A DNA stretch of 37,468 nucleotides from Campylobacterota bacterium (lineage in GTDB: Bacteria > Campylobacterota > Campylobacteria > Campylobacterales > Sulfurovaceae), in contig JAADFE010000043.1 of assembly GCA_013153055.1 (NCBI GenBank), positions 1 through 37,468 on the forward strand. The letters are read 5' to 3'. The notes below the pieces were generated by a model. That model searched no databases. It saw only the letters and a list, made by a program, of their open reading frames with translations, and was not told where the DNA came from. The first letter of the stretch is position 1, and every line of letters begins with the position of its first letter. Below, piece by piece: positions 1 through 36,716 of the stretch. A program made the position numbers and the translations under genes.

Positions 1-464
1 TCTCCACCTGATAGATTTTTTACTACTGTATGCTGTTTGTCTAATATATTAAAATGTTTTAGAACACTATTTAGTTTATTTTTTGCATCTTTTTCATTAG
101 GATTAGTTGGTACTAGAGGTAATAAAATATTATCCTCTACAGATAAATTTGGAATTAGATTATATTTTTGAAATATAAATCCAATAGTAGATTGTCTATA
201 ATCAGATGCAAAATTATCAGGTAGTTTTGAGACTCTTTGCTTATCTACTATAACCTCACCAGTTGTTGGTTTGCTCAAACCTGCAATAAGTGATAAAATT
301 GTACTTTTACCACTTCCACTTACACCTTTTAAAATAACAAATTCACCTTTTTGAATAGTGAGATTAATATCTTTTAGTGCTGTAACTATATTATTTTTAT
401 TTATTTCATAGATTTTGGTAATATCTTTTAAGGTTATTATTGGATTATTCAACCAAAACTCCAT
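1..464 (-). CDS. ABC transporter ATP-binding protein, LolD/MacB type (3' end beyond window)
   Basis: This is the cytoplasmic ATPase that would power the FtsX-type permease encoded in the same operon. Reading the minus strand from an ATG at 464 gives MEFWLNNPIITLKDITKIYE, then a Walker A (GVSGSGKST) near residue 45, the Q-loop region (GFIFQKYNLIPNLSVEDN) and the ABC signature LSGGE at the window edge. The Walker B and H-loop lie outside. The start overlaps the end of the thioredoxin gene by 20 bp, so the two are probably translationally coupled. The order permease, thioredoxin, ATPase suggests one complex handling a periplasmic or membrane-anchored substrate. MacB/LolD-type ATPases look alike, so the substrate cannot be read from this protein. 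Confidence 0.9.
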   Translation of the reverse strand, partial: MEFWLNNPIITLKDITKIYEINKNNIVTALKDINLTIQKGEFVILKGVSGSGKSTILSLIAGLSKPTTGEVIVDKQRVSKLPDNFASDYRQSTIGFIFQKYNLIPNLSVEDNILLPLVPTNPNEKDAKNKLNSVLKHFNILDKQHTVVKNLSGG

Positions 465-819
465 ACTCTCTAAGATATGCCAATATATCTTTTTTGTTCA
501 TATATCCTATATGCCTAGCTACTTCTTTGCCATCTCTATAAAATATTTGAACTGGTAGTTCTGATATATTATTATTTATAGTGCCCAATATATCTTTATC
601 TGTATTGATATAGTATATAAGCGTTTTTGGATACTTTTCTTTTATCTCTTTTATTTGAGGAGCCATACTTTCACACCATATACATTTGGTTTTTCCTATC
701 ATAATCATAGTAGGTTTACTTTTGTCTATTTGAGAAAATTTTATCTCTGGTACATTACCAAAGTTATAAGCAAATAGAGTTGCTGTTATCAAGATTATTG
801 TTATTACTGTTTTTTTCAT
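445..819 (-). CDS. Periplasmic thioredoxin-fold protein of the NosL/ABC operon
   Basis: 124 aa. An N-terminal signal peptide (MKKTVITIILITATLFA) is followed by a thioredoxin fold with the redox motif CIWC around residues 46-49, inside GKTKCIWCESMAPQIKEIK. A cis-Pro-like segment (ELPVQIFYRDGKEV) follows. It probably acts in the periplasm as a disulfide reductant or oxidant. The gene lies 39 bp after the permease and overlaps the ATPase gene. A thioredoxin embedded in an FtsX-permease/ATPase operon resembles, from memory, the ABC/thioredoxin part of the Campylobacter p19 iron-uptake locus. That suggests reduction of a metal or of metal-binding cysteines, but this is inference. The natural partner here would be the NosL protein. 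Confidence 0.85.
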   Translation of the reverse strand: MKKTVITIILITATLFAYNFGNVPEIKFSQIDKSKPTMIMIGKTKCIWCESMAPQIKEIKEKYPKTLIYYINTDKDILGTINNNISELPVQIFYRDGKEVARHIGYMNKKDILAYLREYGVLVE

Positions 820-34055: not shown

Positions 34056-35480
34056 CTACTTAAAATCATAACTCCTATTCAAAATTTTATAATAATCACT
34101 AAAATACTCCTCCATTTCAACTTTATTAGTAAAGATTTTATATACATCTTTGCTATCTCTAAGAGGGTCGGCTAATACAAAGTCGTTTTTATCTCCTCTA
34201 TTTATAAAAGCAAAATCTATACTATTTACTTGGTGTATGATTTTTGCTTTTTCTACTATTTTGACATTTATCCCTTTTTCTATCATAATTTTGATAGCTA
34301 ACTCTACCTCTTTATCTATATGAGACTCTATTACTACTATTAGATTTATATCTATACCATAATCTTTTAGATTATATAGTCTATTTTGAATTTTCATCTC
34401 TTGATAACCTGATTGAACCAAATAGTGGTTTGGGGTTAGCTCTTGGACTACATATAAGGGGATGTTTTTGATATTTTCCAAAGTTTTTATCATCTCATAA
34501 AAAGCTCTTTGATAGTTATAGACAAAATAGCTATTACCTTTTATTACTTTTTCAAAAAGGTTTTTAAATGAGTTAAACTCTTTTAATGCTAAACGATAGT
34601 AGAAACTTTTATTAAATCTGTTTTTGATAAGTTCTTGAAAAAATAGATAGTATCTCTTTAATCTTTGAGTATATTTAATAAGTAAATTATGGTCTAATTC
34701 ATCTATATTTTTATTAACTCTATTCTCTATAGCAGGTAAAATCTCTATACTATTTAGGATAAAATGTAAGTCCAATCTTTTAGTATCTAATATCTCTTTG
34801 GATAGTATAACCTTTTTTGCTCTTGGGACTTTATTGTCTTTTGGGCTAAATCCCATACATATTCCAACTGTATAGTTTGTATAGTTATCATTACTATCAT
34901 GAAATAGTAGATACTGTTTAGTTTGAGTTAAATTGATAGTGATAAACAACTCCCCATTATCTAAAAGAGATACACTCCCTTTTATGCTCTCTTGATTTAG
35001 AGATAGCTCTATCTTCATATCAAGCCCAACTCCTTTTTTCCATTCAACTATCTCATAATAGTATATATCTTTTTTATTATCACTATATAGATAGATATAT
35101 CTATAGTCAATTGGACTATGTACTCTTTTTTTCTCTATTAGATAATCATCTATTCTCTTTTCAAACTCCAAAAGGTTAGATGAATTTTTAAAATCATCTA
35201 ACTTAAATAGAGGCTCTCCTTTATACATATATTTTGAGATTTTATAATAGTTAAAACTCTTTTGAAAATCATTTGTACACTTTATACCATCTCTAAGCCA
35301 ACGACGCAATACTATTTTTCTATTGAAAAAAAACTGTTCATAGGCTTTTTGTTTATTGTTAGTATCAAACTTATCTATATTGAATTTATTATCATCTATA
35401 AAGGCTTTTGTAAATTTATCTAAATCGTTTTCAAAAAGTTTGTTATAAATTAATTGCAGTTTTTTTGTAAAAATCTTCAT
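34056..35480 (-). CDS. Unrecognised 474-aa cytoplasmic protein
   Basis: 474 aa, rich in Lys, Asn, Ile and Tyr, without signal peptide or membrane segment. Residues 1-115 look helical and partly basic (FFFNRKIVLRRWLRDGIKCT). Residues 115-250 are beta-rich (IDYRYIYLYSDNKKDIYYYE, IKGSVSLLDNGELFITINLT). Residues 250-360 are helical. The C-terminal ~110 residues have an alternating pattern (NLIVVIESHIDKEVELAIKI, GINVKIVEKAKI, SIDFAFINRGDKNDFVLADP) that resembles a Rossmann-like or PLD-like sensor half-domain, with no catalytic HKD seen. I do not recognise a family. It is divergent from the DUF475 gene across a 213-bp region full of AAAGTT motifs. ATG preceded by GGGGAG. Confidence 0.7.
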   Translation of the reverse strand: MKIFTKKLQLIYNKLFENDLDKFTKAFIDDNKFNIDKFDTNNKQKAYEQFFFNRKIVLRRWLRDGIKCTNDFQKSFNYYKISKYMYKGEPLFKLDDFKNSSNLLEFEKRIDDYLIEKKRVHSPIDYRYIYLYSDNKKDIYYYEIVEWKKGVGLDMKIELSLNQESIKGSVSLLDNGELFITINLTQTKQYLLFHDSNDNYTNYTVGICMGFSPKDNKVPRAKKVILSKEILDTKRLDLHFILNSIEILPAIENRVNKNIDELDHNLLIKYTQRLKRYYLFFQELIKNRFNKSFYYRLALKEFNSFKNLFEKVIKGNSYFVYNYQRAFYEMIKTLENIKNIPLYVVQELTPNHYLVQSGYQEMKIQNRLYNLKDYGIDINLIVVIESHIDKEVELAIKIMIEKGINVKIVEKAKIIHQVNSIDFAFINRGDKNDFVLADPLRDSKDVYKIFTNKVEMEEYFSDYYKILNRSYDFK

Positions 35481-35495
35481 ATTTCTCCCCAGTCA

Positions 35496-35661
35496 AAAGT
35501 TCCAAAAGTTATTTATACAATTATACATTATAAAAGTTAATTATTAATATGTTTATCCAATTATAAAAAGCCCATAATTTCGCTTTTTGCTCAATAGTTG
35601 TAAAAGTTTTAGAAAGTTTTGAAAAGTTCTATTGATAAACTTTTTGCATTGTTTTAAAGTT
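35496..35661. promoter_or_regulatory. Cluster of eight AAAGTT motifs in a divergent promoter region
   Basis: AAAGTT occurs at 35496, 35505, 35533, 35603, 35613, 35623 and 35656, and inverted (AACTTT) at 35638. Three copies are spaced exactly 10 bp. Two overlapping minus-strand TATAAT boxes lie at 35520-35525 and 35527-35532 for the 474-aa gene. Confidence 0.55.
35565..35588. terminator. Symmetric hairpin with A/T arms in the divergent region
   Basis: AAAAAGC (35565-35571), a 10-nt loop and GCTTTTT (35582-35588). It could end or attenuate transcription in either direction, which is odd between two divergent genes. Confidence 0.4.
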
Positions 35662-35693
35662 CCAAATATCAAAAATAAAAAGGAGAAACAAAG

Positions 35694-36716
35694 ATGAGAT
35701 ATTTTAAAAGCTCATTTATGGTAACAGCGTTTGGTTTAGTATTGGCTTTATTAATAGGTGGATTGGAGGCTCTTTATATAGTTATTTTACTTGCACTATT
35801 AGAGGTCTCTTTATCATTTGATAATGCAGTGGTTAATGCTAAAATTTTAGAAGATATGGATAAAAAATGGCAAGATAGGTTTATAACCTTTGGTATGCCT
35901 ATTGCTGTTTTTGGAATGCGTTTTTTCTTTCCAATTTTAATTGTATCTATAGCGAGTGGATTAAGTGTTATGGATACTCTATTTTTGGCTATTGATTTTC
36001 CTGATGCTTATGAGATAGTATTAAGTTCAGTAGAGAAGCTTATATATGCTTTTGGTGGAGCTTTTTTGCTAATGGTATTTTTAAACTTTATATTTGAACA
36101 TGATAGAGAGGAGATGTGGATAAAGATTATTGAAGGGAGTAAAACCCTAAAGAAAATGGGTAAACTATCAAGTATTGAGATGATTATTTCACTATTTGTT
36201 GGAATTGCTTTGATATTTTTGACAAAAGAGTATGATATAGCATTAGCATATTTTAGTGGAATACTGCTATATGCACTTATTAGTTCACTAGATGAGATAT
36301 TTAGTCTAAATGGTGTTAGAAATGGATTAATGGGGTTGTTATATTTAGAAATTTTGGATGCTTCATTTAGTTTTGATGGGGTAATTGGTGCTTTTGCTTT
36401 GAGTAATAATATATTTGTTATTATGATAGGTTTAGGAGTTGGTGCTATGTTTGTAAGAAGTCTAACACTCTATATGTTGGAAAAAAAGACTCTAAGTGAA
36501 TATAGATATTTAGAACATGGAGCTCATTATGCTATTTTGATGTTGGCTATTATTATGTTGATTGAGATTTTTGTTCATATTGATGAGATAGTAGTTGGAA
36601 CTATTGGAGTTGCTTTTATTGCTCTATCTACTTATCACTCTATTTTAGAAAACCGTGTTCAAAAAGTTGAAAATTCCACTTTGGATTTTTCTTATCGAAC
36701 TAAACGAAAAGAGTAG
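35694..36716 (+). CDS. DUF475/TerC-like integral membrane protein
   Basis: 340 aa with about nine membrane helices. It has the paired acidic motifs of the family, LLEVSLSFDNAVVNAKIL near residue 45 and LEILDASFSFDGVIGAFALS near residue 220. These match the E-x-x-SxDN and E-x-x-DxxFSxDG signatures of DUF475 and TerC transporters. They lie in the membrane and probably bind a divalent cation. TerC relatives are linked to Mn2+ export and tellurite resistance; the substrate here is unknown. ATG preceded by AAGGAG with 7 bases. Its promoter region is shared with the divergent 474-aa gene. A convergent mrdA follows 26 bp downstream. Confidence 0.85.
   Translation: MRYFKSSFMVTAFGLVLALLIGGLEALYIVILLALLEVSLSFDNAVVNAKILEDMDKKWQDRFITFGMPIAVFGMRFFFPILIVSIASGLSVMDTLFLAIDFPDAYEIVLSSVEKLIYAFGGAFLLMVFLNFIFEHDREEMWIKIIEGSKTLKKMGKLSSIEMIISLFVGIALIFLTKEYDIALAYFSGILLYALISSLDEIFSLNGVRNGLMGLLYLEILDASFSFDGVIGAFALSNNIFVIMIGLGVGAMFVRSLTLYMLEKKTLSEYRYLEHGAHYAILMLAIIMLIEIFVHIDEIVVGTIGVAFIALSTYHSILENRVQKVENSTLDFSYRTKRKE

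Follow-up and report, generated by a model that had tools for sequence, protein, structure and literature searches.

A predicted local regulator encoded divergently from a TerC/DUF475 gene across an array of AAAGTT boxes in Sulfurovum-like bacteria

Introduction

TerC proteins take part in Mn efflux and in the loading of Mn into exported enzymes (PMC10550928). Control of the known TerC genes lies with a Mn riboswitch or with sigma factors, meeY and alx being riboswitch-controlled (PMC10550928).

Here we describe a TerC-type gene that lies beside a candidate regulator gene of its own. It is found in a stretch of 37,468 nucleotides (the window; contig C135) from a bacterium of the Campylobacterota whose genome comprises 1.9 Mb in 165 contigs. 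The neighboring gene encodes a protein of 474 amino acids, which we call the orphan: it matched no family above cut-off in Pfam, NCBIfam or PADLOC, and PHROGs gave nothing useful. The two genes are divergent and share a 213-bp gap.

Results

The open reading frames of both genes, and their descriptions in the original prediction, held on re-examination (Table 1). By profile, the partner is classed as a TerC/DUF475 protein: it matched PF04332 (295.7 bits, cut-off 27; E 6.8e-88), PF03741 TerC (62.8 bits, cut-off 27.8; E 4.5e-17) and NF010619 (438.7, cut-off 387).

Table 1. Positions of genes, predicted protein domains and boxes at the orphan-DUF475 locus
Feature	Position	Strand	Remarks
Orphan gene, 474 aa	34056..35480	-	Unclassified; orthologues in 13 genomes
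Orphan domains: helical N-domain; lipocalin-like barrel (predicted)	residues 1-121; 128-227		AlphaFold2, Foldseek
Orphan domains: low-confidence helical linker; degenerate PLD-like domain (predicted)	residues 238-321; 317-470		AlphaFold2, Foldseek
Codons of the N-domain (residues 1-121)	35118..35480	-	Putative DNA-binding part
Orphan-side pair, AAAGTT-N3-AAAGTT (35496, 35505; 9-bp step)	35496..35510	+	Kept in 12 gaps
Orphan extended -10, TGTATAAT	35520..35527	-	Invariant in 12 gaps; putative promoter element, from consensus
AAAGTT in orphan promoter spacer	35533..35538	+	Not kept as a box
Triplet, AAAGTT-N4-AAAGTT-N4-AAAGTT, 10-bp phased	35603..35628	+	Stops 3 bp upstream of the DUF475 -35
DUF475 -35, TTGATA	35632..35637	+	TTG and following A residues conserved; putative promoter element
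Inverted box, AACTTT on plus strand	35638..35643	-	Directly 3' of the -35; intact or one base off in 12/12 gaps
DUF475 -10, TAAAGT (TAAACT in relatives)	35655..35660	+	17 bp past the -35; putative promoter element
DUF475/TerC-family integral membrane protein gene, 340 aa	35694..36716	+	Profile matches

The gap has an A+T content of 77%. A recount confirmed the seven direct AAAGTT hexamers (starting at 35496, 35505, 35533, 35603, 35613, 35623 and 35656) and the one inverted hexamer (35638) that had been reported within 166 bp (35496-35661), as well as the exact 10-bp spacing of the boxes at 35603, 35613 and 35623. This array is real. Against eight AAAGTT in the gap, 5000 dinucleotide shuffles gave 1.09 on average, and none of them reached 8 (maximum, 7); over the whole window the hexamer is barely above chance (76 versus 63). 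Among 17,132 sliding windows of 213 bp, five or more AAAGTT were found solely in this gap or in orthologous gaps.

Orphan orthologues, 43-51% identical and some of them fragments, were found in 13 genomes of the same genus. The relatives are vent and marine MAGs labelled Sulfurovum sp. or Campylobacteraceae bacterium, and the hosts of the pair are sulphur-oxidising Sulfurovum-like vent bacteria. Conservation of the gene pair had been proposed as a check, and the pair passed it: at every orthologue locus on a long enough contig, the orphan has a DUF475 gene as its divergent partner, with 64-71% identity to the one in the window, and the outer neighbors differ. In genome G020 the pair is split between two contigs, with orphan and DUF475 each at a contig end and the triplet array still upstream of DUF475. 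In the DUF475 tree the orphan-paired genes group together in one region, with 2 label changes where shuffles give 9.3. The second DUF475 gene of the window's own genome (contig C84) has no orphan-family gene among its neighbors.

A single-sequence scan of the genome contigs found no orphan relatives, and an alignment-based scan of them gave 11 orphan-family loci. None were found in phage and plasmid collections. A weak match in G043 (L048) was rejected as a family member, the family motifs being missing from its alignment. One orthologue, L032:9429-10394 (G033:C32), is 321 aa long and lacks about residues 208-399 in frame. The G020 locus is near-identical to L032, yet intact, and the L032 gap is either a real deletion or an assembly artefact.

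Does the array belong to DUF475 or to the orphan? Among relatives, DUF475 genes with an orphan carried two to six forward AAAGTT upstream in 10 of 10 cases. DUF475 genes without one, each with its full 260 bp of upstream sequence available, carried none in 13 of 13. In pattern searches across 60 genomes, the exact triplet occurred seven times, each time at this gap; triplets with one mismatch were few and, outside the genus, about as frequent as a reversed control. At three mismatches no regulon was seen in the own genome (18+17 versus 14+14 for the control). Sliding windows, orphan-free DUF475 genes and the 60 genomes thus agree that the array is specific to this gap, which answers the concern that AAAGTT might be as common in other AT-rich gaps. 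Present with the orphan and absent without it, the array follows the orphan and not DUF475; hence the orphan itself, rather than being a co-regulated sensor, is most likely the regulator. The confinement of the exact triplet to this gap further argues for a local rather than a global regulator. Judged from these sequence patterns, a dedicated local regulator most likely underlies the array, whose constant companion gene is the orphan.

One site with a single mismatch, on contig C132, was rejected as a regulon member: it adjoins tRNA-like and integrase-like genes and probably consists of att-type repeats. At this place (L061/L064; G000:C132:12777-12904), repeats of the TGTAAGTT/TGTAACTT type, spaced at about 10 bp, lie between a tyrosine-recombinase-like gene and a tRNA gene. 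The tRNA gene is Ser-like by eye; an integrated element probably has its arm or attachment sites in these repeats.

We then aligned 12 orthologous gaps as a footprint. Columns within boxes were 94% identical, compared with 69% for other gap columns (Mann-Whitney p about 3e-13), a set of box columns that includes two hexamers later read as promoter sequence (35533 and 35656). Of the eight boxes, six persist as such across the gaps: the orphan-side pair, the triplet and the inverted box. The hexamer at 35533 reads AAAATT in most relatives and falls in the orphan promoter spacer; that at 35656 reads AAACTT or nearly so in the other 11 gaps, and most of it is taken in by the DUF475 -10. We therefore read these two as window-specific versions of promoter sequence. 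Among relatives, the orphan-side pair varies to TTAGTT, ATAGTT or AAAATT, and the DUF475 -35 to TTGAGA, TTGTAA, TTGAAA and similar.

Boxes had originally been said to overlap the orphan's -10. This did not hold. No box overlaps the conserved -10, which reads ATTATACA on the plus strand; those at 35496 and 35505 are found 10-24 bp further downstream. If the promoters are placed correctly, the latter pair sits just inside the orphan transcript, where a bound protein would block orphan transcription. On the DUF475 side, the triplet adjoins the -35 on its upstream flank, a position that would suit an activator. The inverted box, which forms an inverted pair with 35623, lies within the DUF475 spacer, where repression would fit too, and so the effect on DUF475 may be of either sign. 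Repeats in both promoters that track the orphan gene and are absent elsewhere are what a local divergent autoregulator would be expected to show.

Could phased A-tracts, together with promoter sequence, account for the boxes through DNA bending or an UP-element effect, with no dedicated DNA-binding protein? The gap is AT-rich, and the core AAAA does recur in it every 10 bp upstream of the -35; promoter elements account for two of the eight boxes; and the box at 35623 retains its G in only half of the sequences. But at 35505, 35603, 35613 and 35638 the G or C within the box is kept in 11-12 of 12 gaps. Moreover, the other pair of boxes lies downstream of the orphan -10, which is no place for an UP element, and AT-rich related genomes lack boxes at the promoters of their orphan-free DUF475 genes. 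We consider A-tracts improbable as the explanation.

What kind of protein is the orphan? A sequence search of the PDB gave nothing useful, with no match for the barrel either. In a full-length AlphaFold2 model, built with 11 orthologues, a confident helical N-domain is followed by a barrel of eight strands, by a middle of low confidence and by an end of mixed alpha/beta type; overall the model was moderate (pTM 0.39). Modelled alone, the N-domain reached a pLDDT of 91.7 and a pTM of 0.83. The eight strands fall between residues 128 and 227 and resemble lipocalins in Foldseek (prob 0.99, E about 0.01), and thus this part is predicted to be a lipocalin-like barrel by fold. The C-terminal end is likewise predicted to be PLD-like by fold: Foldseek gave PLD3 (E 3.2e-4) and Nuc 1byr (E 2.3e-3), with TrmB and BfiI lower down. 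The HKD motif (HxKx4D) was absent from 25 of 26 family members and its lone match lies in the N-domain, leaving 0 of 26 with the motif in the PLD-like region. Hence this domain probably binds rather than catalyzes, and an HKD-less fold resembling nucleases and TrmB fits a sensor better than an enzyme. The beta-rich middle and PLD-like end of the original prediction are therefore borne out by the models. The role assigned to the orphan, however, moves from co-regulated sensor to, most likely, the regulator itself.

The N-domain is the proposed DNA-binding part, and here the profiles speak against a regulator: the orphan had no HTH match in Pfam or NCBIfam, and Foldseek found no significant PDB match to the N-domain model, known HTH folds included. 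hhalign of the N-domain with small XRE-like relatives gave 24.5%. A helix of the NRKTVLRRWL type is conserved in this domain throughout the family (RRKTIxNWLxGKTKKPNG in paralogues). By eye it resembles an XRE recognition helix, with the pattern RKTxxxWLxG, and may serve as a lead.

The orphan family is rare. In the order, 299 genomes were covered and its model matches 16, among them at least four in which a small relative matches by the barrel alone. The paralogues measure 486-674 aa, and most have a second, C-terminal barrel; they are found in the host's own taxonomic family and in two others of the same order. The orphan barrel is homologous to their C-terminal barrel (hhalign 91.7%, E 7.8e-7). 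In genus g27 and genome G046, proteins of 240-540 aa carry one to three barrels behind a small XRE-like N-terminal domain, and HTH profiles matched two such proteins weakly, below cut-off. The occurrence of the barrel behind XRE-like HTHs in other Campylobacterota is one reason to regard the orphan as a regulator.

Another is that paralogues repeat the design of a divergent pair with a phased array. A second conserved divergent pair was found in five genomes (L041, L043, L044, L046 and L047, the family member in L047 being shortened by a contig end). It joins a family member of 606-610 aa to a protein of 370-451 aa. The latter proteins, homologues of unknown function, are of envelope type and bear a membrane anchor or signal-like stretch at the N-terminus. 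Here 10-bp-phased GAAATTT repeats lie in the leader of the family gene, downstream of a conserved TATAATTC-like element; their phasing was significant at three of the five loci. A paralogue in the own genome has a TGTAAAT array phased at 11 bp (p below 1/300). Some paralogues, not all, have a significant phased array. Such different repeat words at their own promoters are what autoregulating DNA-binding proteins would produce.

Three relatives deserve separate mention. L147:325-1944 (G115:C13) encodes a 540-aa protein whose N-terminus is XRE-like; by eye, it has three consecutive lipocalin-like barrels. At L133:2674-5465 (G115:C59), a small XRE-like barrel protein is encoded directly upstream of a TPR-CHAT protease-type gene, which recalls defence systems. 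The 660-aa paralogue L128:1409-3391 (G208:C153) matches DUF6879 over its PLD-like region near threshold (E 1.1e-4; 22.1 bits, Pfam cut-off 23.9), a match that the window protein does not share. This may link DUF6879, of unknown function, to PLD-like folds.

The family data bear on two further explanations. The orphan could act as an enzyme of PLD type, or in the cytosol as a partner of DUF475, and be co-expressed with it for that reason, never contacting DNA; its PLD-type Foldseek matches and strict linkage to DUF475 would allow this. We think this very unlikely, given the missing HKD motif, genes that are divergent rather than co-directional, a barrel joined elsewhere to XRE-like HTHs, and paralogues that pair with unrelated envelope proteins.

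Response regulators of the PhoB/OmpR type often bind direct repeats of 10-11 bp, and phased direct repeats beside a -35 are typical of them. A regulator of this kind, unlinked to the locus, might bind the array and control both genes, with the orphan a co-regulated sensor or partner of DUF475. In its favor, the array has just such repeats by the -35, and the orphan has no recognized DNA-binding domain. Symmetric regulators, moreover, mostly prefer inverted repeats, direct-repeat binding being less usual for HTH regulators (PMC9723621). We nevertheless judge it unlikely: the array is missing at orphan-free DUF475 genes, the exact triplet is found nowhere else in the 60 genomes, no regulon was seen in the own genome, and paralogues have different arrays of their own.

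Discussion

We conclude that the orphan is probably a local one-component regulator of itself and of DUF475, belonging to a small unclassified family. Its N-terminal helical domain would bind the AAAGTT boxes, while the lipocalin-like barrel and the degenerate PLD-like domain would bind a ligand. On the box pair just within its own transcript, the orphan would repress itself; on the triplet, whose boxes are one helical turn apart and touch the DUF475 -35, it would switch DUF475 locally. One regulator would then control both genes, as had been suggested from their layout. The position of the triplet, abutting the -35 from upstream, makes activation of DUF475 appear more likely than repression. 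The signal is probably linked to a TerC-like job, be it the export of Mn or another metal or the supply of metal to secreted enzymes.

The family as a whole may be an unnamed class of regulators, a proposal that we hold to be evenly balanced. Its members would combine a new helical DNA-binding domain with a lipocalin-like barrel, sometimes duplicated, and a dead PLD-like sensor. They would bind phased direct repeats, each member with its own repeat word, and be paired divergently with TerC or envelope proteins.

With its target, operator and domain plan all predicted, the former orphan now stands for a regulator family that can be tested. Should the proposal be true, a TerC-type protein would be under protein-based control, the known Bacillus and Escherichia coli cases including a Mn riboswitch, and lipocalin-like and catalytically dead PLD-like domains would join the sensors of bacterial one-component regulators. 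With several paralogues and different arrays, comparison could show which residues read which DNA word.

How does the locus compare with described systems? A limited search of open-licence literature found no paper on the orphan family, and no description of a linked regulator gene of this kind beside TerC. Like MeeF/MeeY of Bacillus and Alx of E. coli, the partner matches both DUF475 and TerC profiles. Unlike the riboswitch-controlled meeY and alx, its locus gave no match to any Rfam family, the Mn riboswitch included. The XRE-like HTH proteins of Campylobacterota (240-540 aa) carry a homologous barrel C-terminal to a small N-domain (hhalign E 7.8e-7); no PLD-like domain was seen in them, whereas one is predicted in the orphan. 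The orphan differs from TrmB, a family of archaeal sugar regulators, in its extra lipocalin-like barrel, in its different helical N-domain and in matching neither the winged-HTH nor the sugar-domain TrmB profile of Pfam; the Foldseek match to TrmB 3qph was weak (rank 21, E 7.6e-3). Yet the plan is alike: TrmB joins a DNA-binding N-terminal part to a PLD-like domain, and the orphan, with its putative DNA-binding N-domain, appears to do the same.
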